Assembly (NCBI GenBank): GCA_003134655.1
Contig: PLBY01000161.1
Location: forward strand, 1 to 64,000
Reading direction: 5' to 3'
DNA from: Acidobacteriaceae bacterium
Lineage (GTDB): Bacteria; Acidobacteriota; Terriglobia; Terriglobales; Acidobacteriaceae
DNA: 64,000 bases
The notes beneath the pieces are model-generated. The model ran no database searches. It was not told the origin of the DNA and saw only the letters and a list, made by a program, of their open reading frames with translations. Positions 4,857 to 64,000 of the stretch are shown piece by piece; positions within the stretch are counted from its first letter, which is position 1; each line of letters opens with the position of its first letter. The position numbers and the translations under genes were made by a program.

Positions 4857-4955
4857 GACTGTGCCTTCCATGGGGGATGAGGCCCACATTGTAGGCTAAG
4901 TCGCAGACCCTGCGTCAGTGGTGAACCCGGTCAGAATCCCTGTTCCGGGCATTTT

Positions 4956-4982
4956 GAGCGTAATGGCGATGTTACGCCAACC
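4956..4982. repeat. Diverged copy of the short repeat, hairpin-forming
   Basis: GCGTAATGGCGATGTTACGC can fold into a six-base stem. It is similar to the repeat at 5666-5692 (shared GTAATGGCGAT) and, inverted, to 11-33. It lies just past the stop of the membrane-protein gene ending at 4999, where it could also act as a 3-prime stabilising structure. Confidence 0.5.
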
Positions 4983-4998
4983 AGCGCAGTTGCGTTTT

Positions 4999-5521
4999 CT
5001 AACGCACTTGTCTCGGCCCCAACTGTAAAGCGCATTTATCCACCGAACTCGAAATGAACCATTGGACCACGTGCAGGATTAGAAAGATGAAGAACACGTT
5101 AAACGCAAATGCAAAGTGCGGTTCGAAGTCCCTTAGAATAAGCCATCCAACTGGAATATTGCTATTCTCAATCGTGACATAGGACCATTGCAGGCTCAAG
5201 AAGAGCACCATTCCAAAGAGATAGAACGTTGTTCGAATTAGTTTGTCCAACCTCGCAGATCGCTTACGAATTGATAGGACGATTGTTTCAGCATCAGCCG
5301 TGGTTCCGTTGTGGATCGATGCTCTGATCTTTCGGCCCCGTAACACGGTGATCACAGCAGAGAAAAGAACGTAGACACTGAGGCCACCTAAGTGCCACTA
5401 GAAACAGTCTCTCCCAAGTCGAAAAGGCACGCCACGCTGACCAAAAGGGATATGGCGGAATGGGGCTTCCTCCTCCTTCCCTTTGTCCACCCAGAAAGAA
5501 CAAGCTGCAAATCGTATGCAT
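4999..5521 (-). pseudogene. Frameshifted small membrane protein gene
   Basis: Two frames complete each other. The first starts at ATG 5521 behind a strong AAGGAG site and reads through FWSAWRAFSTWERLFLVAL to about 5391. The second, from there to 4999, has no good start and reads GGLSVYVLFSAVITVLRGRK, then two later hydrophobic segments (FYLFGMVLFLSLQ and FNVFFIFLILHVVQWF). Removing one A near 5391 joins them as LVALGGLSVYVLFSAV, a natural membrane helix. The restored protein would have about 173 residues and three or four membrane segments. I do not recognise the family. A single-base sequencing error would give the same picture. A GTG at 5355 could still start a shortened product. Confidence 0.6.
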
Positions 5522-5665
5522 TCTCTCTCCTTCTGATAGCAGACACCAAGATAGGCTTAAAGTTTCCGGCCTGGAAGATCACTGCTGTAATCAGGCCATT
5601 TCACTCAAATTTCGACTGCTTTCGGTTCGGGTTGCATCCGGTCCATCCGTCAGTAATCGAAAGAT

Positions 5666-5692
5666 GAGTGTAATGGCGATTTATCGTCAACA
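5666..5692. repeat. Short dispersed repeat copy
   Basis: The segment beginning GAGTGTAATGGCGATTTATC contains the exact inverted partner of 11-33 and resembles 4956-4982. It overlaps the stop codon of the minus-strand gene ending at 5687, so the repeat supplies the last codons of that gene. Confidence 0.65.
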
Positions 5693-6589
5693 ACCACCCA
5701 CCCCTGCGGCAGGCGCACTAGCAGTTCTTTCAAGCTTCTTTCGATAGAGCACAAAAACAATGGCTGCAATCGGCAAGCCTAGTTTTAGATTCCATGGGCC
5801 GTAGGCCGAACACACCAGATTCGCAGGAAGCGGTGGCAACTTAAAGCCGAATGAGACCGTATCGAACGACCAATCTCCGGTAGTCCAATTCACAGAGACA
5901 AGAATGAAGGTGAACAGCATCGAAAGTATCCACAACCACTTCTTTGGGCCGATCTTTGCAGTAACGCAAAGTGTAATAGCGTAGATCGCGAATGCATTAA
6001 GCAGAATGCCAGCCGCAAACGCGGTGTACTGGGAGACACCTTTGTTTTTGAAAGTAAATGCGTTGATGGCCTCAATCGACTGTTCACTGGTAACCGCATG
6101 GATTCCGGTGATTGAGTTCTCGGTGCTTCGGATGGAAAACGTAACGAACACCCATTTTGCAGGAAGAAGCTCTTTGTCACTGCTGGTTTTCTTCACCGTT
6201 GACGGAAACTCGTAATCCAGCACGATGTTCCTGATTTCTACATCGCCTTTTCCTCGGAACTTCTGTGCATCGATCACCTTGACCGAAACTGGTTCGCGCT
6301 CTGTCAATATGTCATGAATCGCAGTGAGTGACTGACGCGTTTCGGCCCCAACAACGCCCGGTTGCAAAAGCTGTATAACGTCGCTGTATCGGCCCTCCCT
6401 GAGCAGGTCAGCACAATGCCACGCAATGCTCTCCTGCTGCAGCGGTGTGTTGCTTCGCATCAAACCGACGCGGTTATTTCCCGCAAGCTTGAGAAGGTCG
6501 TCGCGGTCACAACACGTCGCAAGGAGTATTGCGAGCCCTGTCAAACAGAGCGTTAAAAATGCAAACAGCCTGATAGGATGTTTTCTCAC
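5687..6589 (-). CDS. Hypothetical membrane protein (300 aa)
   Basis: I do not recognise this family. The product has an N-terminal signal or anchor segment (LFAFLTLCLTGLAILLATC), then a soluble region of about 160 residues predicted to lie outside the membrane. Three further hydrophobic segments follow: AAGILLNAFAIYAITLCV, WLWILSMLFTFILVSVNW, and LGLPIAAIVFVLYRKK near the C-terminus. The layout suggests a periplasmic sensor-like or assembly domain held by C-terminal helices; this is inference. The start is GTG at 6589 without a strong ribosome site. It belongs to a run of small minus-strand membrane-protein genes (4999-6944) with lower GC than the flanking housekeeping genes. The C-terminal residues come from a dispersed repeat. 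Confidence 0.65.
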   Translation of the reverse strand: MRKHPIRLFAFLTLCLTGLAILLATCCDRDDLLKLAGNNRVGLMRSNTPLQQESIAWHCADLLREGRYSDVIQLLQPGVVGAETRQSLTAIHDILTEREPVSVKVIDAQKFRGKGDVEIRNIVLDYEFPSTVKKTSSDKELLPAKWVFVTFSIRSTENSITGIHAVTSEQSIEAINAFTFKNKGVSQYTAFAAGILLNAFAIYAITLCVTAKIGPKKWLWILSMLFTFILVSVNWTTGDWSFDTVSFGFKLPPLPANLVCSAYGPWNLKLGLPIAAIVFVLYRKKLERTASAPAAGVGGC

Positions 6590-6677
6590 AGACTCAGCAA
6601 TTTACGCCCAACCAGCAGGAAATTCCACGATTGTTGTCGTTAACAGGCCGTTTCACTCATTGGCGCTGCTGCGCAAA

Positions 6678-6944
6678 TCAACCCTTCCTGCCGGATTCGA
6701 GAAAGGTCCAGAGCAAGACGAAAGCGGTTGCTGCTGCTGCCGTCCACCCGACGGCGGACCAAGAAATATCCCAACGTGAGTCATGGGGAGAAGAAATCTT
6801 CCCGAGGCTGAAGGCCACGAGGAAAAAGACGACGGTGGCCAATCCAACGCTAGTCCACAGCCGCCATCCGGTCAGTATGTGTGGCCGTCGCATCGCTAGA
6901 ACTTTATACGCTTCTTCCAAGACAACTTCGAGTCGGTTGTCCAA
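6678..6944 (-). CDS. Small hypothetical membrane protein (88 aa)
   Basis: This is a short protein with two hydrophobic segments (LWTSVGLATVVFFLVAFSLG and AVGWTAAAATAFVLLWTFL) and a charged N-terminal stretch. The start is uncertain: TTG at 6944 gives 88 residues, and an in-frame ATG (MRRPHILTGW) gives about 71. Neither has a convincing ribosome site. I do not recognise the family. It is the most upstream member of the minus-strand small membrane-protein cluster. Confidence 0.5.
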   Translation of the reverse strand: MDNRLEVVLEEAYKVLAMRRPHILTGWRLWTSVGLATVVFFLVAFSLGKISSPHDSRWDISWSAVGWTAAAATAFVLLWTFLESGRKG

Positions 6945-7184
6945 ATCAGGCCGTTACACGTTTTGACCCGCTCGCCGCCCCGGAGCCCGGGAGTGCTCGA
7001 AGCTGATGAACAAGCGCTGGAGCGGTTTGGTCACACTTGACAACGGGTAAAGGCTGTCAAAAAGGGAGGCTTGATCGCAGCGCTAAAAGCGCTGCGCCAC
7101 CCAAAAGCAACCCAACCCAGCAGAGCAACTCGGCATTAGCAAACCATTCAATCGAACAGGCAAAGCAAACCAGCAGAGGGAACA

Positions 7185-7661
7185 TCATTGGGTGACGGTG
7201 GCCTGGTAGCTTACGGCCTGCCAGTGGCCGATGCGGCGCACCCAGACGCGCGTGTAACGATAGGGGCCGCTGAAGTCTTCGCCGAGCTGGTGTCCTTTCA
7301 CGTCGGCGCGGGCGGTGACGACGGCGGTGTCGCCGTAGACGCGCACCACCATGTCACTGACATCAATGGCTTCATAGCGGAGCTGGCCGCTCTTGCGGGC
7401 GGAGACGGTGTCCTGCTTGGTCGTGACCTGTCCCAGCGGGGTGATGGCAACGTAATCCTCAGCGAGGGTGCGCTGCGAGAAGTCGGGATCGCGGTGGAGG
7501 CTGGCTTCCTTGGCTTGCCGCTCCATTTCCACGATCTCTTTAATCGTGGACTGGTCCGCGGAGTCCATCGACGTCCGCGGATGCACCGCAACATGCTGGC
7601 CCGCGAAGACCGGCAGGGTTACGAGCAGAGACAACAACAACACTGCACACTTGTTGAGCAC
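7185..7661 (-). CDS. Secreted NTF2-like (SnoaL/DUF4440) protein
   Basis: The product is a 158-residue exported protein. Residues 1-20 form a signal peptide (VLLLSLLVTLPVFAGQ). The rest matches the nuclear-transport-factor-2-like/DUF4440 fold: an N-terminal helix with a run of acidic and basic residues (IKEIVEMERQAKEASLHRD), then LAEDYVAITPLGQVTTKQD and the closing strands of the cone-shaped barrel (TRVWVRRIGHWQAVSYQAT). Members bind small ligands or act as small isomerase-like proteins, but no catalytic residues can be assigned here. The start is GTG at 7661, supported by GGAGGT seven bases upstream. Confidence 0.8.
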   Translation of the reverse strand: MLNKCAVLLLSLLVTLPVFAGQHVAVHPRTSMDSADQSTIKEIVEMERQAKEASLHRDPDFSQRTLAEDYVAITPLGQVTTKQDTVSARKSGQLRYEAIDVSDMVVRVYGDTAVVTARADVKGHQLGEDFSGPYRYTRVWVRRIGHWQAVSYQATVTQ

Positions 7662-8147
7662 GATGAGACCTCCGCGGTTTGCGAGGGGACAGAGATCCGC
7701 CTGACCGAGCTACGCAACCTAGGATGCTGGAGTTCCGTGGAAAAGTTATCCGCTGCGACATTTGTGTCAACATCAACAACGGGCGAGTAAACGTTCTCAA
7801 GTCATAATCGAACGTCTTTTCCTAACAATAAAGACGGTGCCAGAGGCTGTATTGTTTCTTGGAAAATTCCGAGGGCCCCATGTCGTCCAAGATTCCGCCC
7901 CGAAGCGGCGCACACATCCACTACCCCGAGTTACAGCAACTCCGCTTCCAAGCGGGGACGCGCCAAATCCTTGAAATACGGAACCACCCGAGACGGGGAA
8001 CCGCGCCGATTGTCCACTCCGGGACTGGAGTGTCCAGTATCGGACAGGAGTCTTTTCCAGGCCGGCCGCTGAGTCTCGGCCGATATCGGAGCGGGAGGGT
8101 GACCGGTGAGGGGCGGCATCTAGTAGAATCAAACCTCCGATTCATGC
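7662..8147. other. Intergenic interval upstream of cobO
   Basis: About 490 bases lie between the divergent NTF2-like and cobO genes. I see no convincing gene, no cobalamin-riboswitch core and no terminator. The ribosome site of the NTF2-like gene lies at the left edge. Weak frames in this stretch have no ribosome sites and no recognisable products. Confidence 0.4.
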
Positions 8148-8684
8148 ATGGCTGACATCCGTCGTGGTCTGATTATCGTGAACACCGGTCCGGGTAAAGG
8201 CAAGACCACTGCGGCGATGGGAACCGCTCTTCGAGCCGTAGGTCAGGGGATGCGGGTGCTGATGCTGCAGTTCCTGAAGGGCTCGTGGCACTACGGCGAA
8301 CTCGATGCCGTGCAGGCCTTCGGCGACAAGTTTGTGATGAAGCAGATGGGCCGTGGCTTCGTGAAGGTCGGCGCCGAGAAGCCAGACCCGGAAGACATTC
8401 GCATGGTCGAAGAGGCCTGGGCCGAGGCCGATCAGGCGATTCAGTCGGGGAAATGGGATTTGGTCGTTCTCGACGAGATTAACTATGCCATCAGCTACGG
8501 CATGCTGGATCCGGCGAAGGTGGTCGAGAGCCTGAAGAAGAAGCCGGAGATGGTGCACGTCATCTTGACGGGCCGGAACGCGCACCCCACAATTGTCGAG
8601 GCCGCCGATACAGTGACGGAGATGCGCCAGGTGAAGCACGCGTATGAAAAGGGCGTGATGGCGCAGAGAGGAATCGAATACTAA
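8148..8684 (+). CDS. cobO: Cob(I)yrinic acid a,c-diamide adenosyltransferase
   Basis: The enzyme attaches the 5'-deoxyadenosyl group of ATP to the cobalt of corrinoids, making adenosylcobalamin intermediates in the cytoplasm (CobA/CobO/BtuR family). The P-loop is GPGKGKTTAAMGTALRA (residues about 14-30). QFLKGSWHYGE follows, then the Walker B-like segment WDLVVLDEINYAISYG, and ILTGRNAHPTIVEAADTVTE near the end, all in the family order. The length of 178 residues is standard. The start is ATG at 8148. No other cobalamin gene is nearby, which suggests corrinoid salvage, though the rest of the pathway may lie elsewhere. Confidence 0.95.
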   Translation: MADIRRGLIIVNTGPGKGKTTAAMGTALRAVGQGMRVLMLQFLKGSWHYGELDAVQAFGDKFVMKQMGRGFVKVGAEKPDPEDIRMVEEAWAEADQAIQSGKWDLVVLDEINYAISYGMLDPAKVVESLKKKPEMVHVILTGRNAHPTIVEAADTVTEMRQVKHAYEKGVMAQRGIEY

Positions 8685-8689
8685 CGTCG

Positions 8690-8770
8690 AGTACGCAGTA
8701 CTCAGTACTCGGTACCCAGTGGTCGCGGCGTCGGGTTCGAACTGAGTACTGAGTACAGGGTACTGACAAC
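8690..8770. repeat. Palindromic GTAC-rich repeat element
   Basis: The interval is built from repeats of AGTACTCAGTACTCGGTAC and its inverse ACTGAGTACTGAGTACAGG, with a short spacer, giving an inverted-repeat layout. Near-identical sequence occurs inside folC at 10576-10610. It fills the whole gap between cobO and accD, so it may also influence accD expression. Confidence 0.8.
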
Positions 8771-8777
8771 TGTTTTT

Positions 8778-9620
8778 ATGGCTTGGTTTAAACGCGAAGC
8801 CGGCGAGCTCGACACTTCGGGCGAGAAAAAAGTCCGCACCGAAGGGCTGTGGGTGAAGTGTGAGAACTGCCGGCAGATCATCTGGAAGAAGGATCTGGAA
8901 GAGAACATGAACGTCTGTCCGAAGTGCGACAAGCACTTTCGAATCGACGCCCGGACCCGGCTCGCGCAACTGCTCGACAACAACCAGTACGAGACGTTCG
9001 ACGGGGACATTGCCTCGACCGATCCGCTGAAGTTCGTGGACTTGAAGCCGTATTCGTCGCGGCTGAAGCAGGCGCAGGCGGACACGGGCCTGAACGACGC
9101 CGTCATCAATGCTCATGGCAAGCTGATGGGGCGGCCTGTGGTGGCGAGTGTAATGGAGTATGCCTTCATCGGTGGCAGCATGGGCGCGGTTGTGGGCGAG
9201 GCGATTACCCGAGCCGTGGAACGTGCCGCCCATTCGCGTACGCCTCTGATTATTGTGTCGGCATCGGGCGGCGCTCGCATGATGGAGGGCGTGATCAGCC
9301 TGATGCAGCTGGCGAAGATTTCCGCGGCGCTGGCACGGCTCGATAAGGCCAAGGTTCCCTACATCTCTTTGCTCACCGATCCGACCACTGGCGGAGTGAC
9401 CGCGTCGTTTGCCATGCTGGGCGACCTGAATATCGCGGAGCCGGGAGCGCTGATTGGTTTCGCCGGGCCGCGGGTGATTGAGCAGACGATCCGGCAGAAG
9501 CTGCCGCCCGGCTTCCAGCGCAGCGAGTTCCTTCTGCAACACGGGATGCTGGACGCAGTCGTTCCCCGCAAAGAGCTGAAGCCCTATATCGCGCGCGCAC
9601 TGGATTTTATGGTGGCGTGA
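8778..9620 (+). CDS. accD: Acetyl-CoA carboxylase carboxyltransferase subunit beta
   Basis: AccD, with AccA, moves the carboxyl group from carboxybiotin to acetyl-CoA to make malonyl-CoA for fatty-acid synthesis. The N-terminal zinc ribbon is intact: CENC at about residue 28 and CPKC at about residue 47. The crotonase-fold core is recognisable from PVVASVMEYAFIGGSMGAVV, SASGGARMMEGVISLMQLAK and LTDPTTGGVTASFAMLGDL (oxyanion-hole region). The length of 280 residues is typical. The start is ATG at 8778. folC follows 240 bases downstream, a common accD-folC pairing, but repeats have expanded the gap. accA is not in the window. Confidence 0.97.
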   Translation: MAWFKREAGELDTSGEKKVRTEGLWVKCENCRQIIWKKDLEENMNVCPKCDKHFRIDARTRLAQLLDNNQYETFDGDIASTDPLKFVDLKPYSSRLKQAQADTGLNDAVINAHGKLMGRPVVASVMEYAFIGGSMGAVVGEAITRAVERAAHSRTPLIIVSASGGARMMEGVISLMQLAKISAALARLDKAKVPYISLLTDPTTGGVTASFAMLGDLNIAEPGALIGFAGPRVIEQTIRQKLPPGFQRSEFLLQHGMLDAVVPRKELKPYIARALDFMVA

Positions 9621-9858
9621 AGCTATCAGCTATCAGCCGTCAGCTAGCTCCTTAATTTCGATCGTAGAATCGATCCTTCTCTGTGTCCTCCGTGTCCTCT
9701 GTGGTTCGATTAAGCACTAACCACAGAGGACACGGAGTACACAGAGGCCACGGTGAGCTGCGATCCTCAGATTCACTCCCCCACTTTTTCAGTCGTCCCC
9801 AAGGCTGATAATCTGAGAGATCGAGCTGAAAGCTGACCGCTGATAGCTGAGAGCTTCC
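9616..9858. repeat. Nested inverted repeats between accD and folC
   Basis: Two layers are visible. Outer arms rich in AGCTATCAGC (9621-9650) and CTGATAGCTGAGAGCT (9838-9855) are roughly inverted. Inside them, 9680-9706 (CTCTGTGTCCTCCGTGTCC) pairs with 9720-9750 (CCACAGAGGACACGGAG). The inner element belongs to the same family as 32603-32680 and 47977-48012. The arrangement suggests one repeat inserted in another. folC probably depends on a promoter within or beyond this structure. Confidence 0.75.
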
Positions 9859-9860
9859 CC

Positions 9861-11255
9861 ATGTCCTACGAAACCGCCGTCGCGAGCATGTTTGCGCTGG
9901 GGCACGAGTTGGCCCAGACGCCGTCGAACAAGTTCGACCTGGCGCACATGCGTGTGTTGCTTAGGGCGATGAATCATCCCGAGCGGGCGTTTTCCAGCGT
10001 GCTGATTGCAGGGACGAACGGGAAAGGTTCGACGGCGGCGACGCTGGCCTCGATCCTGCAAGCTTCGAGGTTGAAGACTGGCCTCTACACCTCGCCGCAT
10101 CTGGTGCGGATCAACGAACGCATTCGCGTGAACGGAGAAGAAATCAGTGACGATGATTTTGCCCGACTGCATGGAGAAGTGGATCGCGTCGCGGAGAAAC
10201 TCGTCGGCGAGGGACAGCTGCCCTGGCATCCCAGCTTTTTCGAAATGATGACGGCGATTGCGTTTGCGCACTTTGCGGGCGAGCGGGTGGCAATTGCTGT
10301 CCTCGAAGTTGGCATGGGCGGGCGCCTCGATGCGACTAATGTCGTGGAGCCGCTGGTCAGCGTGATTGCCGACATTTCGCTCGACCATCAGAAATTTCTC
10401 GGCAATACCGTGGGCGAGATCGCTCGCGAGAAGGTGGGGATCATCCGCCTTGGTGGCGTGGTCGTGACTCTGCCGCAGCAACCTGAGGCCAACGACGTCA
10501 TCGGCAATACGATTCTCGATCTGGGGGCGAAGGGAGTCAGTGCGGTGCAGTATGTGCCTCCGGTGTCGCCGGGGAGTACTCAGTACTCAGTACTCGGTAC
10601 TCAGAGAACTTCATCTTCCGCTGAGCGCGTGGAGAACGATGACGCTGCTCAGTACCGTCAGGAATATCCGCTGCAGGTGATGGGGACGGAGATTCTTGTG
10701 GAGACGCCTCTGGTGGGGCGGCACCAGTTGCGAAACGTGGCGCTAGCCGTCGCTGCGGCGGAAGAGGTGTCGAAACTGGGATTTGCCGGCATCACGCCGG
10801 AATCGATCGAACGTGGAATCCGCGAGACGCGGTGGCCTGGACGCTTCCACGTACTCGCAGCGCGGGCTGGCTGGCCTGAGATTGTGCTCGATGTGGCTCA
10901 TAATCCGGCGGGTGCGTGGGCCCTCCGCTCCGCCCTTTCGGAGCGCTATGACGACCGTCCGCTGATTTTCGTTTTCGGGGCGATGCGTGACAAGGCAATC
11001 TCAGAGATGACGGACATCCTGTTTCCGCTGGCCGAGCGGGTGATCGCCACGAGGCCTGACAATCCGAGGGCGGCGTCGCCGGAAGAGATTCAGCAAGCCG
11101 GCAGCCGCACAGGGGCTGAGATTGAAGCGGTTGCCGAGGTCGGAGCGGCGCTGGAGCGGGCTCGAGGAGTCGCGGGACCTAAGGCGGTCATGGTGGTAAC
11201 GGGGTCGATCTATCTGGTTGGGGAAGCGATGCGGCTACTCCGAGTGAGGATTTGA
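9861..11255 (+). CDS. folC: Bifunctional folylpolyglutamate/dihydrofolate synthase
   Basis: FolC adds L-glutamate to dihydropteroate and polyglutamate tails to folates, using ATP in the cytoplasm. The N-terminal Mur-ligase-like domain has the P-loop GTNGKGSTAATLASIL (about residues 51-66), the substrate loop LYTSPHLVRINERI and the metal-binding segment EVGMGGRLDATNVV. The C-terminal domain begins near WPGRFHVL and includes LDVAHNPAGAWAL. At 464 residues it is longer than usual (about 430) because a GTAC-type repeat is inserted in frame at about residues 236-250, encoding STQYSVLGTQ. The flanking sequence is intact, so activity is probably kept. The start is ATG at 9861. Confidence 0.95.
   Translation: MSYETAVASMFALGHELAQTPSNKFDLAHMRVLLRAMNHPERAFSSVLIAGTNGKGSTAATLASILQASRLKTGLYTSPHLVRINERIRVNGEEISDDDFARLHGEVDRVAEKLVGEGQLPWHPSFFEMMTAIAFAHFAGERVAIAVLEVGMGGRLDATNVVEPLVSVIADISLDHQKFLGNTVGEIAREKVGIIRLGGVVVTLPQQPEANDVIGNTILDLGAKGVSAVQYVPPVSPGSTQYSVLGTQRTSSSAERVENDDAAQYRQEYPLQVMGTEILVETPLVGRHQLRNVALAVAAAEEVSKLGFAGITPESIERGIRETRWPGRFHVLAARAGWPEIVLDVAHNPAGAWALRSALSERYDDRPLIFVFGAMRDKAISEMTDILFPLAERVIATRPDNPRAASPEEIQQAGSRTGAEIEAVAEVGAALERARGVAGPKAVMVVTGSIYLVGEAMRLLRVRI
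10576..10612. repeat. GTAC-type repeat inserted in folC
   Basis: The stretch AGTACTCAGTACTCAGTAC with the following CGGTACTCAG matches the repeat upstream of accD (8696-8720) over about 20 bases. Here it lies inside the folC reading frame, keeps the frame, and encodes STQYSVLGTQ in a loop between the two folC domains. Confidence 0.8.
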
Positions 11256-11292
11256 GGCTCATCCAGCCAGCAGTTTCCCCTAGAATGGAAGT

Positions 11293-12141
11293 GTGCAGGA
11301 AGTGAAGTCATCTGTCGATCACGTGGAAAGCGGCCAGTATGAGAGCGGTCCCCAGGCTGTGCCGGTCGCTTCGTCGTTGGCCCCAACACGCTTCAGTCCC
11401 CACGCCATTCCACGGTTGAAGCACGGCTGGCTGAGTCGGCTGCGCTCGTACTTCGTCCTCGATCCGCTCATCTGGCTTTACACGCTGGTGATGGGACTGC
11501 TGGCGATCCCCGGCGGCGTGTTTGACCGCAGTGGACGGCGGCTACACTGGTTCTCGTACGCCTGGTCGTGGCTGATCATGAAGACGATCTGGTCGCCCGT
11601 GAAAGTGATCGGGCTCGACAAGATCGACACTTCGAAGTCGCACGTCTATGCCGTGAATCATGCGTCGGCGCTCGACATTCCGGTGCTCTACACGTATCTC
11701 CCGTTTCAGTTCCGGATTGCGTTCAAGAAAGAGTTGTTGGCGTATCCGGTGGTGGGCTGGCAGTTGAAGCGCTCAGGGCAGGTCTGCATCGACCAGCAGA
11801 ACCCTTCCCACTCGATCAGCAGCATCCGCGCGGCGTTGAAGGGACTGAAGGCTGGGTTGCCTCTGGTGATTTATCCAGAGGGTGGTCGCACGCCGGACGG
11901 AGAGATTAAACCATTTTTGTCGGGAGCGTTCTTTCTGGCAATCAAGGCGCAGGTGGACATCGTCCCAGTCGCGCTAGTGGGTACCTACGAATTGCTGCCC
12001 ATGAATACCTACCACATCAAGTGCCGCCCGCTGGAGATGCGGGTAGGAGAGCCGATTTCGACGACGGGGCTGACGATGAAGGATCTGGAATCGCTTTCGG
12101 CGCGAGTGCAGAAGTCAGTTGAGGACTTGTACTACCGCTGA
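11293..12141 (+). CDS. 1-acyl-sn-glycerol-3-phosphate acyltransferase (PlsC family)
   Basis: This membrane-associated enzyme transfers an acyl chain to lysophosphatidate or a similar lysophospholipid, giving phosphatidic acid. Block I is NHASALD (the HX4D catalytic pair) at about residue 116. FKKELLAYPVVGWQL and SGQVCIDQQN follow as blocks II and III, and YPEGGRTPDGEIKPFLSGAF supplies the glycerol-phosphate-binding PEGxR block. A hydrophobic segment (LDPLIWLYTLVMGLLAIPGG) precedes the catalytic part. The N-terminal 45 residues are extra and have no recognisable domain. The start is GTG at 11293, with a second GTG nine bases on. The gene lies 37 bases after folC, probably in the same operon. 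Confidence 0.9.
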   Translation: MQEVKSSVDHVESGQYESGPQAVPVASSLAPTRFSPHAIPRLKHGWLSRLRSYFVLDPLIWLYTLVMGLLAIPGGVFDRSGRRLHWFSYAWSWLIMKTIWSPVKVIGLDKIDTSKSHVYAVNHASALDIPVLYTYLPFQFRIAFKKELLAYPVVGWQLKRSGQVCIDQQNPSHSISSIRAALKGLKAGLPLVIYPEGGRTPDGEIKPFLSGAFFLAIKAQVDIVPVALVGTYELLPMNTYHIKCRPLEMRVGEPISTTGLTMKDLESLSARVQKSVEDLYYR

Positions 12142-12173
12142 TTCTCCCATCCATCGCCTCGGCGGGTATCTGC

Positions 12174-12974
12174 CTAGGCCGCCTTCGAAGCTTCATCGCA
12201 TCGCTGCTGGTAGTGCTCGCGCCCGCGCTGGTAGCCGCGGGTAAACGCTTCTTCGACTTTTTTGCCCGGGTGTTCGCGCTGAACGTCTTCCAGAGCGGCG
12301 TCCATTGCGGCCGAGACCTGGTCGAATTCCATGCAGCGGGTGCGCGCATTGAGCGCCGCCTCGAAGCCACGGCGGAAATATTCTTCGTCCTCGGCGAAGC
12401 TCTTGCCTGATTGCGAGTAGTGGCTTTCTTCGGCGCTGCGCAAGCCGATCCACCATTGCTCGCGGGCGGCATCGATCGACTCGGCGCCTTGCGCCTTCAT
12501 CAGTTCGCGGAGAAGCGACGCCTGCTGTTTGTCCCCGGTGAGGACGATCACCACGCTCCGGCCCTGGCGCAGAGCGTCTTCGTAGACGAAGATTTCATCT
12601 TCCGGCAGTCCCTCGGTGGTGGAGTTCTCCAACTCGTTGCCTGCAACTGCGCCAATCGTGGCCCCTGCCGCTCCGAGGACCGCGGCTCCCAGAAGGCCGA
12701 CCGCCGTGATGGGGCCGAGCCCCGGCACCAGGGCCATCAGGAGCGAGCCGCCAGCGAATCCGACGCCTCCGCCGGCCAGCGCACCAATCGCTTTCCCCAT
12801 GCCCGGCTGCTCGGCAGCATCGCTGGGAACCGCCAGCATCTCTTTATTTACTTGGTCCACGGTGCCGGGAGTCAGGAGCGTGACCCGGTCGGCCGGAATG
12901 CCCGCCTTGAGCACTTCGCTTACCACGTTCTCTGCATGGGCTCGCGTTTTGAAGACTCCACTGATTGCTTCCAT
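12174..12974 (-). CDS. Hypothetical stress-type protein with glycine-zipper segment
   Basis: The product has 266 residues in three parts. Residues 1-60 resemble the short ferredoxin-like domain of general-stress/YflT-like proteins (EAISGVFKTRAHAENVVSEV, with GIPADRVTLLTPG). Residues about 60-125 form a Gly/Ala-rich hydrophobic zipper (ALAGGGVGFAGGSLLMALV and GLLGAAVLGAAGATIGAVAG). The C-terminal 140 residues are soluble, rich in Glu, Arg and Ala, probably helical, with aromatic pairs (REQWWIGLRSAEESHY). Similar layouts occur in proteins annotated only as hypothetical or stress-related, and the function is unknown. The start is ATG at 12974. It converges with the acyltransferase gene upstream. 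Confidence 0.75.
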   Translation of the reverse strand: MEAISGVFKTRAHAENVVSEVLKAGIPADRVTLLTPGTVDQVNKEMLAVPSDAAEQPGMGKAIGALAGGGVGFAGGSLLMALVPGLGPITAVGLLGAAVLGAAGATIGAVAGNELENSTTEGLPEDEIFVYEDALRQGRSVVIVLTGDKQQASLLRELMKAQGAESIDAAREQWWIGLRSAEESHYSQSGKSFAEDEEYFRRGFEAALNARTRCMEFDQVSAAMDAALEDVQREHPGKKVEEAFTRGYQRGREHYQQRCDEASKAA

Positions 12975-13107
12975 AAGTCACCTCTCTACTTTCGACACTA
13001 TAGGATCAAGGTCTTGGATGCCAGGAGCCCCTGCGATAGCTACATGAAATTTTGCACCAATTCTCCCCCCTTCCGTAACCTTTTCGCTGGCCGAAGCGTT
13101 TACCCTA

Positions 13108-13683
13108 ATGCAAGACCAAACCGCGGAGATTTCGTTGAAGGCTCTGAAGAAAGAAGCGGACGAGCGGCTTCTGATCGAGGCTGCGCAGAAGGACCCCGCC
13201 TGCTTTGCCGACCTTTACGAAATCAATTTTGAGCGCGTATATGCCTACGTCGTCAAGCGCGTGCGCGACCGGGCTGAGACGGAAGACCTGACGGCGGAGG
13301 TCTTTCACCAGGCGCTGGCAAACTTGAAGCGGTTTGAATGGCGGGGAATTCCGTTCGCGGCGTGGCTTTTTCGGATCGCGGCGAACCTGATTTCGGACCG
13401 CTGGCAGCGTTCAGGGCGGGAAGTGGCAGACGATTCGGGGATCATCGATTCTGTGCAAGCGAGTCCGGCGGAAATCGAAGAAGTCGAGCGCCGGGCCACC
13501 TTGTTTCGCCTGGTGGATACGTTGCCGGCCGAACAGCGGCGTGTGGTCGTGCTGCGGTTTGTCGAGCAGAAGAGCATTAAAGAAGTGGCGCGCGAGGTCC
13601 GCAAGACTGAGGGTGCGGTGAAACAACTACAGTTCCGCGCGCTCAGCAGCCTGCGGGCGCGTATGGAGGGTGCCGATGCCTAA
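13108..13683 (+). CDS. ECF RNA polymerase sigma factor
   Basis: This is a 191-residue sigma-70-family factor of the extracytoplasmic-function class. Region 2 runs over about residues 30-95: FADLYEINFERVYAYVVKRV, AETEDLTAEVFHQALANL and FAAWLFRIAANLISDRW, covering core binding and -10 recognition. Region 4 runs over about residues 128-185: LPAEQRRVVVLRFVEQKSIK and EVARE with KTEGAVKQLQFRALSSLR, the helix-turn-helix that reads the -35 element. The start is ATG at 13108. The downstream gene begins inside its last codons (ATGCCTAA overlap), so the two products are translationally coupled. No classical anti-sigma factor with a membrane segment is present. Confidence 0.92.
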   Translation: MQDQTAEISLKALKKEADERLLIEAAQKDPACFADLYEINFERVYAYVVKRVRDRAETEDLTAEVFHQALANLKRFEWRGIPFAAWLFRIAANLISDRWQRSGREVADDSGIIDSVQASPAEIEEVERRATLFRLVDTLPAEQRRVVVLRFVEQKSIKEVAREVRKTEGAVKQLQFRALSSLRARMEGADA

Positions 13684-15169
13684 GCGCTCTCTGAACCCGG
13701 GGAATCCCGACACGAAGCAGATTGAACAGCTCAACCAGGCTGTCGAGGCGATGCTGTCGCGGGCGGATGGCAAGGCTCCGAAGGTGGCGGCGGGCATTGA
13801 GCCTCTGCTTCGGATTGCGGCCGGTCTGCGCGACCTGCCGCGCGAGAGCTTCAAGGCCCGATTGAAGTCCGAATTAGAAGGGAAAAAGCGTATGTCGACC
13901 GTTGCTGAACCCGTCCCAGCTGTTCGCATGACGGCATCACCCAGGTTAGCGTTCCGAGACCCCGCAAAAGCGATCGAGTTCTACCAGCGCGCTCTGGGCG
14001 CGAAAGAAACTTTCCGCTTCGAGGTTGGAGGACAAATCCCACACGCCGAAATCATGATCGGCGATTCGACCATCAATATAGCCGGCGAATGGCCCGAGGG
14101 AGGCCGCTTCAGCGCCGAAACGCTAGGGCACTCGCCAGTTTCGATGTCCATCCAGGTCGACGATGTAGATGCGTTTACGGAACATGCCGTGGCGGCCGGG
14201 ATGAAGCTGGTGCGCGCCGCTCAGACCCAGTTCTACGGACATCGCGATGCTCTGCTTCAGGATCCCTTTGGCTACTCGTGGTCCCTGGTCACGGTGATAG
14301 AAGAGATGTCCGTCGACGAGATGCATCGGCGCATGCAGGGGATGACCAAGGGGCCCGAGGGCGGCAAGATGCCAGAACCGAAGAACGCCGTGAGCCCGGT
14401 TCCGAAGGGCTATCGCACGGTCACCCCGTATCTGGTTGTGCCTGACGTCGACGCGGTGATCAACCTGGTGAAGAAGACGTTCGGTGGCGAAGAGATCTTC
14501 CGCGCAGTCGGATCGGCGGGCGGCTACCACTGCGAGGTGCGCGTGGAAGATTCCATGCTGATGATTGGCGGTGGTGGCACAGGAGTGGCGTGGAAGGGCG
14601 AGCCGATGCTGGGTGCGTTCCACGTGTATGTTCGTGATTGCGACGCCGCCTACAAGCGCGCGTTGGAAGCAGGTGGGAAGTCGCTCACCGAACCCGCCGA
14701 CCAGTTCTATGGCGAGCGCTCGGCTGGCGTGATCGATGCGGCGGGCAATCACTGGTACATCGCGACCGCTAAGGCGAGCGGCTACAAGTCGGAGGGCGCG
14801 CCAGCAATTCAGCCCTATATGCACCCGCTGCGAGTGGACCCGGTGATGAACTTCCTGAAGCGCGCTTTCGGGGCAGAAGACTTGGGGCGGTACACGTCGC
14901 CCGATGGTGTTGTGCACCACATGACGATCAACATCGGCGACTCGCACCTGGAGATGGGCGAAGCACAGGGGCCGTATCAGCCGATGAAGTCGATGTTCTA
15001 CCTGTATGTGCCGAACGTGGATGATGTATACCGGACGGCCCTGGCAGCGGGCGCGAAGTCAATGAACGAGCCTGCGGACCAGCCTTACGGCGACCGGGTC
15101 GGCGCAGTGACCGACATCTTTGGCAATCAGTGGTGGATCGCGACGCACGTCAGGGATATGCGAACCTAG
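13676..15169 (+). CDS. Three-domain VOC (glyoxalase/PhnB-like) protein coupled to a sigma factor
   Basis: The product of 497 residues begins with about 75 residues not found in glyoxalases (QIEQLNQAVEAMLSRADGK and LLRIAAGLRDLPRESFKARL), resembling short segments often found after ECF sigma genes. Three vicinal-oxygen-chelate domains of the PhnB/DUF1428-like type follow, at about residues 85-210, 243-370 and 376-495. Each has the pattern AIEFYQRALGA or its equivalent, a GD-S-I/L strand and a closing QFYGxRxxxxxDPFG-like segment. Such domains bind small ligands or metal and may act as resistance or lyase proteins. The ATG at 13676 overlaps the sigma gene stop. A role as ligand-sensing partner of the sigma factor is inference. 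Confidence 0.85.
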   Translation: MPKRSLNPGNPDTKQIEQLNQAVEAMLSRADGKAPKVAAGIEPLLRIAAGLRDLPRESFKARLKSELEGKKRMSTVAEPVPAVRMTASPRLAFRDPAKAIEFYQRALGAKETFRFEVGGQIPHAEIMIGDSTINIAGEWPEGGRFSAETLGHSPVSMSIQVDDVDAFTEHAVAAGMKLVRAAQTQFYGHRDALLQDPFGYSWSLVTVIEEMSVDEMHRRMQGMTKGPEGGKMPEPKNAVSPVPKGYRTVTPYLVVPDVDAVINLVKKTFGGEEIFRAVGSAGGYHCEVRVEDSMLMIGGGGTGVAWKGEPMLGAFHVYVRDCDAAYKRALEAGGKSLTEPADQFYGERSAGVIDAAGNHWYIATAKASGYKSEGAPAIQPYMHPLRVDPVMNFLKRAFGAEDLGRYTSPDGVVHHMTINIGDSHLEMGEAQGPYQPMKSMFYLYVPNVDDVYRTALAAGAKSMNEPADQPYGDRVGAVTDIFGNQWWIATHVRDMRT

Positions 15170-60660: not shown

Positions 60661-60740
60661 GCGGTATTGACGAGTCGGGCTACCTGTGGAAATTTCTGTT
60701 GATAGTAGGTACTAATGCACAGAAAATGCGGCATTGACGA
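60661..60740. promoter_or_regulatory. Direct repeat upstream of deaminase module
   Basis: GCGGTATTGACGA (60661-60673) and GCGGCATTGACGA (60728-60740) differ at one position. The second copy lies just upstream of the first gene of the module. Each contains TTGACG, a possible -35. They may be paired operators or duplicated promoters; a -10 is not clear for either. Confidence 0.35.
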
Positions 60741-60751
60741 AGAAGGTACAC

Positions 60752-61066
60752 GTGAATAGAGTGTTACAAGTTCCGAGTCTTTACGATCAATTTCAATCTG
60801 CGCGTCAAAAGGGGACTGCCACAGTGCCTAGCGTCTTCGTCGTACCAGTGTACGTGGAAGTACCGTCTGGGTTTGAACGATCTATCGCCACGCTCGAAGC
60901 GACGTTACGGCGGGCAGGCTACACCTTCCATACCGGGGAGCCAACGACAGAGACGCTAGAGGAGTACAGGAAGGCTATCGATGGACACATCCGAACGGAA
61001 CGCCCTACGGAGCTTGGCGGACATGAACGTGTGCCCGAACTGCGGAGCGACGATAGCGCCGGGTAA
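60752..61066 (+). CDS. Hypothetical protein, first gene of deaminase module (104 aa)
   Basis: The likely start is GTG at 60752 with AAGAAGG about five bases upstream; a TTG at 60734 is the alternative. The product has a strand-like centre (VPSVFVVPVYVEVPSGFE), then a helix (RSIATLEATLRRAGYTFHTG) and a basic end (YRKAIDGHIRTERPTELGG). I do not recognise it. Its last 86 bases overlap the next gene in another frame, so its C-terminal residues are constrained by, or arise from, that gene. GC content is lower than in acnA, as for the whole module. Confidence 0.55.
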   Translation: MNRVLQVPSLYDQFQSARQKGTATVPSVFVVPVYVEVPSGFERSIATLEATLRRAGYTFHTGEPTTETLEEYRKAIDGHIRTERPTELGGHERVPELRSDDSAG

Positions 61067-61190
61067 ACGTCAAGTGTACGGAGACGGCGTCTTTTGTAGT
61101 CTTGACTGCGTTGCGCTGTACAACGGAGCGCAATTGATAGAGCGGCATAAAAGGCTGCTAGACGCAGCCAAGAAACACCGGGATTCATAA
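60981..61190 (+). CDS. Small zinc-ribbon protein (69 aa)
   Basis: The start is ATG at 60981, supported by AGGAAGG six bases upstream, within the previous gene. The four Cys of VCPNCGATIAPGKRQVYGDG and VFCSLDC form a CxxC...CxxxC-type zinc ribbon/FCS-like finger (about residues 18-43). A helical tail follows (GAQLIERHKRLLDAAKKHRD). It may bind nucleic acid or mediate protein contact. It lies 23 bases before the two-domain deaminase gene, with which it probably shares a transcript. Confidence 0.65.
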   Translation: MDTSERNALRSLADMNVCPNCGATIAPGKRQVYGDGVFCSLDCVALYNGAQLIERHKRLLDAAKKHRDS

Positions 61191-61213
61191 ATTCTACGGC
61201 AGGACTATTGAGA

Positions 61214-62431
61214 GTGGGCATCGTCGAGCGATCGCTGTTTCCAGAATTAGACGCACTAGAAGGGCGCAAAGGAATCTTGCCATGTCAAGACATTCGCCGC
61301 ATGGTAGCGACCGGTCAGATCAGTGCGTCGCTGGAGGTACTCCCCAGCCAGATTCAGCCTGCAAGTATTGACTTGCGATTAGGCCCCGTAGCGTATCGCG
61401 TGCGCGCCAGTTTTCTTCGTGGTCGCTCTGCGACACTGATGACGAAAGTCAAGGAGTTATCGTTTGGCTCAATAGCCTTAGATGCTGATGCTCCGACCCA
61501 GCTAGAGCCAGGCGCGGTGTACATCATTCCGTTATTGGAGAATCTGCGGCTGCCAAGTGATGTGCAGGGTGTGGCCAACCCGAAGAGTACCACGGGCAGG
61601 CTCGATCTATTTACGCGCTTGATTACCGAGCATGGGGACCAGTTTGACCGTGTTCCCTTGGCATACAAGGGCGGTCTCTTTGTGGAGGTATCCTCGCGCA
61701 CCTTCCCGATACGACTGAGAGCTGGGATGACTCTTAACCAACTGCGATTCATTCGTGGAGCGTCTCTCGATCCAATTCGGAATGGCGAACTAAGAGCCTT
61801 GGCAACACGCGAAAATTTGGTGTTTTCCTCGGACGGCACCCCGACCCTGGATCGCGTGGGCGAGGGAGTTGAATTGACGGCAGATTTGGTTGGGGATGAC
61901 AACGGCATTGTTGCATATAGAGCGAAAGTGGCTGCGCCGCTTATCGAGATGGATAAGATTAACTACTACGATCCAGCCGACTACTGGGATATCATTTTTC
62001 GCAGCAAGCACCAGCGTCTGATCCTCGACAAGGGCGCTTTTTACCTTTTGGCCTCAAAAGCGCTAGTCAGTGTTCCTCTGGAGTGGTCCGCGGAGATGGT
62101 GGCCCATGACCCAAGCATGGGTGAATTTCGCGTTCATTACGCTGGCTTTTTTGATCCTGGTTTCGGATACGGTTCCAAGAAGGGGGACATTAGCGGAACC
62201 AAGGCCGTCTTGGAAGTCAGGGCTTATGAGGTCCCGATCTTGCTAGAAGATAATGATGTCGTTGGAAGGCTTCACTATTACCGCATGGCGGATGCCCCCG
62301 ATAAGGTTTATGGATCTGGAATTGGCTCTTCGTACCAGCGGCAAGGGTTGAAGCTAAGTAAGCAGTTCAAGGCACCTGTGGCCCCGGAGCAGATGCATGC
62401 TATTACTCGTCCTGCTCTGGTGGCTCACTAA
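61214..62431 (+). CDS. Two-domain dCTP deaminase (long Dcd type)
   Basis: The 405-residue product matches the long 2'-deoxycytidine 5'-triphosphate deaminase family, which carries two Dcd-type jelly-roll domains. The first (about 25-180) has QIQPASIDLRLGPVAYRV, DVQGVANPKSTTGRLDLFTR and GLFVEVSSRTFPIRLRAGMT. The second (about 220-385) has DKGAFYLLASKALVSVPLEW, FFDPGFGYGSKKGDISGT and AVLEVRAYEVPILLEDNDVV. The reaction is dCTP to dUTP with release of ammonia. The start is GTG at 61214, with AGGA nine bases upstream; a TTG at 61208 is too close to that site. It is the largest gene of a low-GC module with further members of the superfamily. Confidence 0.85.
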   Translation: MGIVERSLFPELDALEGRKGILPCQDIRRMVATGQISASLEVLPSQIQPASIDLRLGPVAYRVRASFLRGRSATLMTKVKELSFGSIALDADAPTQLEPGAVYIIPLLENLRLPSDVQGVANPKSTTGRLDLFTRLITEHGDQFDRVPLAYKGGLFVEVSSRTFPIRLRAGMTLNQLRFIRGASLDPIRNGELRALATRENLVFSSDGTPTLDRVGEGVELTADLVGDDNGIVAYRAKVAAPLIEMDKINYYDPADYWDIIFRSKHQRLILDKGAFYLLASKALVSVPLEWSAEMVAHDPSMGEFRVHYAGFFDPGFGYGSKKGDISGTKAVLEVRAYEVPILLEDNDVVGRLHYYRMADAPDKVYGSGIGSSYQRQGLKLSKQFKAPVAPEQMHAITRPALVAH

Positions 62432-62462
62432 CCCCCGAGTATAGCGCTCTTAATTCCCCCCA

Positions 62463-62616
62463 CTGGCGGGTAGCCCGGCTTTTGATCTCGCTGAAAACAC
62501 AATGGGCTCGTCTCTTGGACTCTGCTCAGGACAGGCTCCTCGCGCAATCTGCGATTCCTGTGCAAGCAGCATCGCTTCCCGCCCTTCGAAAACTGCGAGG
62601 GACGGGCCACCCGCCC
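62463..62616. repeat. Inverted-end repeat element, first copy
   Basis: The left end GGCGGGTAGCCCGGC and the right end ACGGGCCACCCGCCCC are inverted copies, spanning about 150 bases. The interior (CTTTTGATCTCGCTG, ACACAATGGG, CTGCTCAGGACAGGCTC) recurs at 63905-64000. It lies between the deaminase and the membrane-anchored gene and has no credible gene of its own. Confidence 0.7.
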
Positions 62617-62734
62617 CAATGGGAACGATGCCTTCAAGAAGCCTACGCTTTAGCGGGCCAAGTCGTTCTGGAGCAGTCCGCGGATCTCAGCTACACTCGA
62701 TTGAGCTCAAGATCCAATCTGGGTGCAGACCGCC

Positions 62735-63376
62735 ATGCCAATTGTTGATTTGGAAGCGCGACTTACAAACGATTTCGATCTTTACATGCAGTCAGCTCGA
62801 CAACCCAACAGCCTTATCTACATGAGCGCACCGGTGAGCCTTGAGGACGGTCCGTCGTCGGTTGAGTTACACGTCGGCGATGCGTTCTCCTCATGCTCGG
62901 AAGATGCGTATATTCAGGTCGGGGCGGACGGAATCAAACTACGCTCCGGTGAGTCGGTCGTCGTGGACTCGCAAGAAAAGGTTGGGCTACCAGCGAACAT
63001 TTTTGGCTTCGTCTCGGGCAAAGGGCGTTACATTTTTATGGGCGTCATGTTGTCACCCGGCAAGATAGACCCTCTATTCTGTGATCATCTGCGGATCGGC
63101 TTGTTCAACGGCGGTAAGAGCACAGCTGTCCTTCAGCGTGGAGAGCCGCTATGCACATGCGCTTTCGTCTCCATGGAGGGATATTCCAAACGCGGCTTGA
63201 AGACGCGCCCCAGTCCCGCGCCCAAGTTACAGACATTGCCGTTCTCGAAGCGCGTCATGGCGAGTTGGAGCCGAGAATACTATAAACTCGCCCCAGTTAT
63301 TGGCGGAATCGTTGGAGCGCTGATCACGTCAGCAATGGCGTATTACATCTTCAAGCTTACTCACACAGCGAAATGA
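62735..63376 (+). CDS. Membrane-anchored dUTPase/Dcd-fold protein
   Basis: The product has 213 residues from ATG 62735 (a GTG at 62723 is also in frame). Residues about 20-155 resemble the dUTPase/dCTP deaminase jelly roll: DGIKLRSGESVVVDSQEKVG, GFVSGKGRYIFMGVMLSPGK and IDPLFCDHLRIGLFNGGKST, then VLQRGEPLCTCAFVSME. A single membrane helix near the C-terminus (LAPVIGGIVGALITSAMAYY) is followed by a short Lys-rich tail. The conserved Arg and Glu of true deaminases are not obvious, so it may bind nucleotides or partner the next protein. Its stop overlaps the next start by ATGA. Tethering this fold to a membrane is unusual. Confidence 0.7.
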   Translation: MPIVDLEARLTNDFDLYMQSARQPNSLIYMSAPVSLEDGPSSVELHVGDAFSSCSEDAYIQVGADGIKLRSGESVVVDSQEKVGLPANIFGFVSGKGRYIFMGVMLSPGKIDPLFCDHLRIGLFNGGKSTAVLQRGEPLCTCAFVSMEGYSKRGLKTRPSPAPKLQTLPFSKRVMASWSREYYKLAPVIGGIVGALITSAMAYYIFKLTHTAK

Positions 63377-63900
63377 TTATCACGGGCGACAGACTATTGG
63401 CGCTGATCCAGCGGGACGGGATTGTCTCAAACCCCGACAGCTATGACGTCAACTCCATCACCCTTACCCTTGGGCGAGAGATACTGAGAGTCGAGAACGA
63501 GGGGCAGGAGCACGTATATGGCCAGCCCATTCGACCAGAATGGGTAAAGAGATTAGAAGTACCCGAGGAAGGAATACTGCTAGAACCCCACTCGGCATTT
63601 CTTGCGATGTCTGAAGAAAGTGTATCCATGCCTCCCGGCCATTTGGGACTGTTGCAAACGAAGGGTTCTTTGGCGAGGCTGTTCATAACTGTCTCGTGCT
63701 GCGATGCGCAAATAGACCCTGGCTATCAAGGGAGGATCACCTTCGAGATAGTGAATCTTGCTGGGCTTCGCGTACGACTTCTCCCAGGAACTGCGATCGC
63801 TCAGCTCTTCATCGCAGAGTGCACCGCCAAGAACGGAGCACTATATCGGGGCAGGTATCAGGGCGCGCAGCGACCCACTATTCAAGCTCCTGAAAAATGA
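63373..63900 (+). CDS. dCTP deaminase-family protein (Dcd)
   Basis: The 175-residue product matches the short Dcd family: SYDVNSITLTLGREILRV, then LLEPHSAFLAMSEESVSMP, the signature KGSLARLFITVSCCDAQIDP and GYQGRITFEIVNLAGLRVRL with the conserved Ser, Arg and Glu of the active site, and LLPGTAIAQLFIAEC. Length is typical. It should deaminate dCTP, or hydrolyse dUTP as well if bifunctional. The ATG at 63373 overlaps the stop of the membrane-anchored protein, so the two are translationally coupled. It ends just before a repeat copy at the window edge. Confidence 0.85.
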   Translation: MIITGDRLLALIQRDGIVSNPDSYDVNSITLTLGREILRVENEGQEHVYGQPIRPEWVKRLEVPEEGILLEPHSAFLAMSEESVSMPPGHLGLLQTKGSLARLFITVSCCDAQIDPGYQGRITFEIVNLAGLRVRLLPGTAIAQLFIAECTAKNGALYRGRYQGAQRPTIQAPEK

Positions 63901-63904
63901 CCGC

Positions 63905-64000
63905 TGTGGGCGGTGGCCCACCTTTGATCTCACCGACACCAGCAACACAATGGGTGCCCTGTCGCTTCGACTGCGCTCAGGGCGGGCTCTTCGCGCAGTT
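63905..64000. repeat. Inverted-end repeat element, second copy (runs off the window)
   Basis: GGGCGGTGGCCCACCTTTG, ACACAATGGG, CTGCGCTCAGGGCGGGCTC and TCGCGCA match 62463-62555 in order and spacing. The right end lies beyond the window. The pair flanks the last two genes of the module in direct orientation. Confidence 0.7.

Follow-up and report, generated by a model that had tools for sequence, protein, structure and literature searches.

What does a bacterium do with three proteins of the dCTP deaminase (DCD) fold that are encoded side by side, one of which has very probably ceased to deaminate and appears to be anchored in a membrane? The question is raised by a locus of an Acidobacteriaceae bacterium in which five + strand open reading frames (ORFs), g1-g5, lie at 60752-63900, downstream of acnA, in the window that we analysed, which is the start (64 kb) of a 326-kb contig (genome 8.05 Mb, completeness 99.5%, listed contamination 5.23%). 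The original prediction had placed five ORFs on this strand behind acnA and had seen among them three members of the dCTP deaminase/dUTPase superfamily together; it was right as to coordinates and strand, and the products of g3, g4 and g5 (61208-63900, one strand) each exceed the curated cut-off of PF22769 (dCTP deaminase-like). That three together are not normal, as it also held, is borne out by a count of six PF22769 domain matches in five genes of this genome versus zero to three matches in each of 109 other genomes of the same bacterial family. The lasting result of our analysis is g4 itself, recognised as a probable membrane-anchored dead deaminase, together with a large family of proteins that resemble it.

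The g4 protein and a family that resembles it

The match of g4 to PF22769 (32.4 bits, cut-off 27) is partial and covers positions 64-150. Its structure model (34 rows; mean predicted local distance difference test score, pLDDT, 77.8) combines a beta core predicted with confidence and, towards the C terminus, a helix (172-212) inside which lies a hydrophobic stretch at about 188-206 (hydropathy 1.84 at 188); this prediction, run for g4, supports its earlier description as a membrane-anchored dUTPase-fold protein. The best Foldseek matches of the model are E. coli Dcd, and the best PDB sequence match of g4 is 1xs4 (E 1.5e-4), the title of which names the E138A mutant of E. coli Dcd with dCTP; the title of 2j4q names the same mutant with dTTP. 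Residues are numbered here by what we take to be the E. coli Dcd positions, and the catalytic roles given to them are likewise our assumption, save for the E138 mutants named in the PDB titles. Set against E. coli Dcd (TIGR02274, 1xs1), g4 shares the fold but differs by R115F and E138G, and by an extra C-terminal helix; S111G is a further change at a catalytic position, and the other conserved residues K110, D128, P129 and N141 are kept. The frames of g4 and g5 are both intact and overlap at an ATGA. We therefore take g4, with high probability, for a membrane-anchored deaminase that is dead, and the basic residues that precede the helix suggest that its DCD domain would be cytosolic. Because 1xs4 and 2j4q are titled as E138A with dCTP and dTTP, a deaminase without E138 can still bind deoxynucleoside triphosphates (dNTPs).

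Is g4 alone in this anatomy? A phylum search with g4 gave matches in 16 other genomes of 297, mainly soluble DCDs, and a C-terminal hydrophobic segment was found in the g4-matching proteins of genomes G167, G281, G259 and G113 and in a Qipengyuania plasmid protein. A family profile built from three hydrophobic-tailed proteins found 184 confirmed relatives in the collection genome_contigs, and the family counts rest on 80 of these 184. Of the 80 loci, 74 have an ORF over the match, 71 of them within 150-330 aa; five further members bring the rows to 76, and those of G121 and G103 to 78. Both R115 and E138 are absent from all 78 rows, in which K/R110 (77/78), D128 (77/78), P129 (78/78) and N141 (78/78) are kept, and a transmembrane-like hydrophobic C-terminal stretch is present in 75 of 76 rows, the exception being a member cut by the end of its contig. 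In 35 soluble DCD rows that served as a control, R115 is R throughout and E138 is lost in 12, the catalytic Glu being replaced by Ser or Ala and R115 kept (e.g., L012, L015, L016, L024). We recognise in these sequences a widespread family of putative membrane-anchored pseudo-deaminases, and it is this family, reaching beyond the window locus, that is the interesting find. Our literature searches found no description of a membrane DCD; an earlier mention in Burroughs 2015 or Iyer 2013 is possible.

What stands beside these proteins? Within 8 kb, an HMUDK_hel-like gene occurs in 58 of the 80 loci, an M78 peptidase-like gene in 45, a MazG_C-like gene in 38, a coupled all-helical protein in 35 and an AcpS-like gene in 28; fewer still have an Nmad2-like (12), ThyA-like (11) or ThsB-TIR-like (8) gene. 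The profiles for these neighbours were built from Pfam-named members, except for one M78 and one AcpS seed chosen by similarity. Of the Pfam-recognised nucleotide-modification genes that we count as core partners (HMUDK_hel, MazG_C, ThyA and Nmad2), one or more lie within this distance in 66 of the 80 loci, and in 39 of the 47 that have the full 8 kb on both sides. The helical protein, its function being unproven, was left out of that count, and it is present in 11 of the 14 loci that have no core partner. Whole genomes of the phylum sample contain HMUDK_hel in 7 of 294 cases. Next to the membrane DCDs of G281 and G259, both strong family matches, the gene is adjoining, and five HMUDK_hel genomes, this one included, are without a strong family match. 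The copy in this genome lies on contig C20 beside a thymidylate-kinase-like gene, in surroundings that by eye hold XRE, M78, C1-peptidase, AcpS and conjugation-like genes; contig C20 yielded no gene of the DCD fold.

Several other observations concern the family loci. The all-helical protein (Table 1 and 34 further family loci) has an invariant His, Asp and Glu and is usually coupled to the membrane DCD; its model has a mean pLDDT of 93.3, and it has no Pfam match and no PDB fold match below E 0.04. A 285-aa neighbour, for which none of three representatives has a Pfam match, is left here without the "TS-like" label that it had received by eye. In the bacterial family of the window itself, G121 and G103 have operon-like sets that run RNaseH_2/DUF429-like, kinase-like, adenylosuccinate-synthetase-like and, last, membrane DCD (the second and third genes were scanned in G121 only), with a helix-turn-helix gene on the opposite strand. 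On a Bradyrhizobium elkanii plasmid, some 6 kb separate a family member from a nuclease annotated as Shedu.

A membrane sensor of nucleotide pools?

How might a dead deaminase on a membrane anchor be used? The reading that we put forward, tentatively, is that g1-g5 is a probably acquired cassette in which g4, coupled to g5, would serve as a membrane dNTP sensor or effector, with a possible role in defence. The cassette would combine a dCTP deaminase of the working type, g3, with the translationally coupled pair g4-g5. In this pair g4 would retain the nucleotide-binding fold of the superfamily without being able to deaminate, and would act at the inner membrane either by itself or combined with g5 in a mixed assembly, so that a change in the dCTP/dUTP/dTTP pools, for example one caused by a phage, would alter its state. 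The wider family of membrane-anchored dead DCDs may be read in the same way. Sensing of a dNTP imbalance fits because catalysis appears lost, the other conserved residues are kept and the E138A structures are titled with dCTP and dTTP. The fold, the loss of both catalytic residues, the hydrophobic C-terminal helix, the gene overlap, the patchy distribution and the neighbours of the wider family are seen by sequence or prediction, and to them this reading would add nucleotide binding, membrane insertion, mixed assembly, sensing and defence.

Defence is suggested only by those neighbours and by DefensePredictor, which counts a 5-hydroxymethyluracil kinase and a thymidylate synthase with the domains newly validated in defence and has MazG, MazG-C and a dUTPase among its predictions (PMC13092281). 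The islands of the wider family appear similar to these systems in having a 5-hydroxymethyldeoxyuridine (5hmdU) kinase, thymidylate synthase, MazG, MazG-C and nucleotide-modification-associated domains, whereas the window locus has none of these, and the predicted "dUTPase" can be compared by name only (PMC13092281). A nucleotide sensor has been suggested elsewhere too: in DndF, a nucleotide kinase domain is proposed to sense nucleotides that derive from phage (PMC10853773). A bolder version of our reading would make the tail-anchored dUTPase-fold pseudoenzymes the dNTP-sensing membrane arm of nucleotide-modification immunity, with g4-g5 as a version rewired to work with soluble dCTP deaminases, a mixed assembly at the membrane that would monitor the dCTP/dUTP/dTTP balance and damage the membrane once a phage upsets this balance; we regard this version as rather doubtful.

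Does g4 descend from the family whose anatomy it has? Like the family, g4 has a DCD fold, has lost R115 and E138, keeps K110, D128, P129 and N141, and ends in a hydrophobic helix; it differs in being 17-24% identical to 33 members and in being coupled to a DCD. The trees draw on 26 of the 78 membrane rows and on an equal number of soluble ones (22 of the 35, the 13 left out being mostly near-copies, plus three plasmid records and one phage record), with the three catalytic columns removed and, in a third build, without three long rows. In all three builds the membrane rows chosen stand together on one side of a branch (support 97/82, 98/83 and 92/74), and g4 joins the base of these rows (78/94, 93/89 and 72/90, with no value starred). 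The top four matches of a phmmer search with g4 are family members (36.9-32.1 bits), the ranking being level with soluble DCDs from there on. We conclude that g4 shares the anatomy of the family and that its descent from the family is weakly supported.

A number of our own results weigh against reading g4 as a sensor of this kind. Its placement in the family is not significant and its branch is long, the nearest rows by path and by identity being soluble ones, and its family-profile score of 41.2 bits falls inside the soluble DCD range, 24.6-54.0. The loss of E138 alone does not mark a sensor, since 12 of 35 soluble rows lose it too. None of HMUDK_hel, MazG_C, ThyA and Nmad2 was seen as a neighbour of g4, and neither g1 nor g2 is like the helical protein coupled to the family's members. 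The pairing of g4 with g5 is without precedent in the family, as none of its 80 loci yielded a second DCD-fold gene. The link between the membrane DCD and HMUDK_hel is itself uneven, as of the six phylum-sample genomes with a membrane DCD only G281 and G259 have HMUDK_hel, and G121, G167, G113 and G103 are without it. Finally, the best match in the PADLOC run, made for g1-g5, has E 0.051 and is with a candidate model that is unrelated.

The companions of g4 and the origin of the locus

If g4 does not deaminate, do the proteins encoded beside it? Over its full length g3 matches DCD_N and DCD_C (PF06559 209 bits, PF22569 225 bits); it matches NCBIfam NF005734 at 440 bits (cut-off 283) and PDB 2r9q at 330.8 bits over residues 21-389, and the equivalents of S111, R115 and E138 are all in place in its N domain. 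The prediction is that g3 is a dCTP deaminase of the working type, an ordinary enzyme. It is like the NF005734/PRK07559 type and the Agrobacterium protein of 2r9q in both domains, in its full-length match and in its N-domain active-site residues, and differs only in genomic setting, being away from the lon site of four congeners. In those congeners (G084, G367, G392 and G393) the two-domain protein stands beside lon; this genome, G391 and G394 lack it at lon, and on the G395 contig the 2.3 kb that remain showed none. A view of the type as rare, from three strong matches in 294 phylum genomes, was overturned by the bacterial-family sample, in which it is the sole DCD-family gene of 11 of the 109 other genomes (G084, G367, G300, G304, G319, G321, G335, G338, G343, G354 and G378). 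A divergent two-domain DCD of G172, 28-33% identical to others, adjoins a protein with acetyltransferase-like and ASCH-like domains.

That the two-domain type is the only DCD-family gene of so many genomes bears on two other explanations of the locus. One is ordinary nucleotide metabolism, with g3 as an acquired spare or replacement dCTP deaminase and g4 and g5 as decaying or passenger relatives without a joint role. It accords with those genomes, with the conserved residues lost in both g5 and g4, with the 303 nt that separate g3 from g4, and with a five-gene order that was not found elsewhere; however, a canonical Dcd is already present on contig C157, the frames of g4 and g5 are intact and overlapping, and the match of g4, in lost and kept residues and in its C-terminal helix, to a family of 184 confirmed relatives would not be expected from random decay. 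We consider this explanation as likely as our own reading, short of an even chance. The other, which the original prediction had in mind, is defence by dNTP depletion, in which g3 and g5 would destroy dCTP on infection with the assistance of g4. Deaminase-based depletion of dNTPs is known as a defence in other systems, and the N-domain active-site residues of g3 are intact, yet the known dCTP-deaminase defence enzymes have a different, zinc-dependent deaminase fold, the existence of the two-domain enzyme as sole DCD in 11 other genomes makes it compatible with normal growth, the best PADLOC match is the poor one given above and no regulator was identified at the locus. Depletion is in our judgement an unlikely explanation.

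The activity of g5 is less easily predicted. It scores 90.1 bits against PF22769 (cut-off 27), 96.3 bits against PHROG 1663 (dCTP deaminase) and 88.2 bits against TIGR02274, under the cut-off of 92.8. It has the fold of E. coli Dcd (TIGR02274, 1xs1) and, like it, R115 and E138, but differs from it by S111G, by the change of the motif-1 Asp to Thr and by that sub-cut-off score; the losses of S111 and of the motif-1 Asp are unique to g5 among the 35 soluble rows. With neither the TIGR02274 cut-off nor the full active-site set reached, we read g5 as a soluble DCD whose active site is partly altered and whose activity is uncertain. A match to it at E 1e-8 was found in only seven others of 247 phylum genomes, the best being 32% identical.

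Could the locus instead be a remnant of a phage or mobile element, its DCD genes having supplied the element's own nucleotides? The PHROG match of g5, its 125 matches among phage records at E 1e-3 (every one <60% identical), the lowered G+C, the repeat copies described below and the membrane DCD that lies, by eye, inside an apparent prophage of G113 could all be taken in this sense. However, g3 has no match at E 1e-20 among 50,697 phage records and g4 only three weak ones at E 0.01, g4, g5 and the family profile brought no confirmed match when viral contigs were scanned with them, and no phage structural, replication or integrase genes were seen, by eye, adjoining the locus. A remnant is, on this evidence, very unlikely. 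The suggestion of a defence or phage-derived role has thus fared unevenly: the indirect link of the membrane-anchored type to nucleotide-centred islands speaks for it, the lack of a PADLOC match and of adjoining phage genes against it, and at the window locus itself nothing shows defence.

What, then, do the position and composition of g1-g5 (Table 1) say about their origin? The lower G+C and differing codon use that had been noticed relative to the flank are confirmed by computation, and the DNA is somewhat foreign-looking: G+C is 54.0% over 60734-63900 versus 59.1% over 1-60700, a modest shift, and the codon scores of g1-g5 are low, from 0.071 to -0.090 (upstream genes: mean 0.211, sd 0.123, n=31). 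The G+C at third codon positions is not extreme, as 6-17 of 46 upstream genes are lower, and g2 and g5 have a slightly higher codon score in a reverse frame. Because g3 is 65% identical to its counterpart in G319, of another genus, and 53% and 49% identical to those of the congeners G084 and G367 (86% identity between the two), while acnA is 87% identical to that of G084, g3 was probably acquired from outside the genus. We see in g1-g5 a small cassette behind acnA that was probably acquired horizontally. Since the 303-nt gap between g3 and g4 holds a repeat copy, there may be two units, g1-g3 and g4-g5; pieces related to the repeat are also present on contigs C49 and C87 of this genome. The hairpin after g5 is a match to a consensus only, and the region has eight such terminator-like sites where shuffled sequence has a mean of 3.2 (sd 1.8). 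Rfam and tRNA scans of the window gave zero matches.

Table 1. Positions of the features at the locus (window numbering) and of genes and gene sets at other loci named in the text
Feature	Position	Strand	Remarks
g1, 104-aa ORF	60752..61066	+	start uncertain: GTG 60752 or TTG 60734
g2, 69-aa ORF	60981..61190	+	four-Cys zinc-ribbon-like pattern
g3, predicted two-domain dCTP deaminase	61208..62431	+	TTG start; PF06559, PF22569, PF22769
Repeat copy, 69 nt	62546..62614	+	between g3 and g4
g4, probable DCD-fold pseudoenzyme	62735..63376	+	C-terminal hydrophobic helix
g5, one-domain DCD	63373..63900	+	overlaps g4 by 4 nt
Terminator-like hairpin	63906..63921	+	after g5
Second repeat copy, 83% identical	contig 64036-64104		direct repeat; after g5, just outside window
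HMUDK_hel gene of this genome with its neighbours, contig C20	L193, G000:C20:4000-23000, 4186-10706
Third extra DCD with its neighbours, contig C137	L003, G000:C137, ~11120-14420
All-helical protein	L129 7829-8422
Operon-like set of G121	L194 5486-10117
Operon-like set of G103	L195 5776-10550
709-aa protein of G107	L196 7212-9341
Divergent two-domain DCD of G172 with adjoining gene	L055 4993-7356
Family member in plasmid record NZ_CP126030.1	L209 8049-8714		annotated as deaminase

The flank offers little to hold on to. We had to reject acnA, which has a match in 38 other genomes, as a fixed anchor, the flank differing among the five relatives that were fetched, and none of g1-g5 was found behind acnA in these five. 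G084 has a PD-(D/E)XK endonuclease gene at a greater distance downstream of acnA, in the same relative orientation as here and with other genes between, and is the only one of the five to keep it in that orientation. We read the region downstream of acnA as a variable site, the five flanks being too different for a clean empty-site comparison.

The first two ORFs add little. They overlap by 86 nt, and coding support is weak for both. For g1 there is no Pfam, NCBIfam, PHROG or PADLOC match, and g2 has zinc-finger matches in Pfam that are all sub-threshold; neither has a convincing relative in 199 genomes (best other match E 0.0029 for g1 and E 0.0024 for g2). As candidates for the helical partner of the membrane DCD family both were rejected, the profile search being negative. 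Elsewhere in the genome, a third extra DCD on contig C137 (PF22769 111.9 bits) has on one side a 449-aa protein in which an HExxH motif is seen by eye and on the other an opposite-strand E1/ThiF-like protein; in G107 a 709-aa protein has its DCD domain at 542-689, behind an HExxH region (by eye), as if two of the C137 genes had been fused.

A one-off locus and a widespread protein type

The idea of a recurring five-gene module did not stand. The order was found nowhere else in the searches made, an outcome that the original prediction itself had named as refuting it, and a pattern scan of genome_contigs for relatives of g4 gave 20 pattern matches, none confirmed. Within those searches the module is a one-off, which is sobering for the idea from which we started.

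For the wider family the outlook is different. Proteins named dCTP deaminase from their fold may be non-enzymes: the product name "deoxycytidine triphosphate deaminase" is carried by 4 of the 9 plasmid records with a family member (NZ_CP126030.1, NZ_CP133481.1, CP140872.1 and NZ_CP024308.1), one of which, from Bradyrhizobium elkanii, was read and by eye is without R115 and E138, and none of the 78 family rows keeps either catalytic residue. If these membrane-anchored proteins do bind nucleotides, they would provide a testable link from nucleotide pools to the membrane in suspected immune islands, and g4-g5 would be a compact pair with which to test it.

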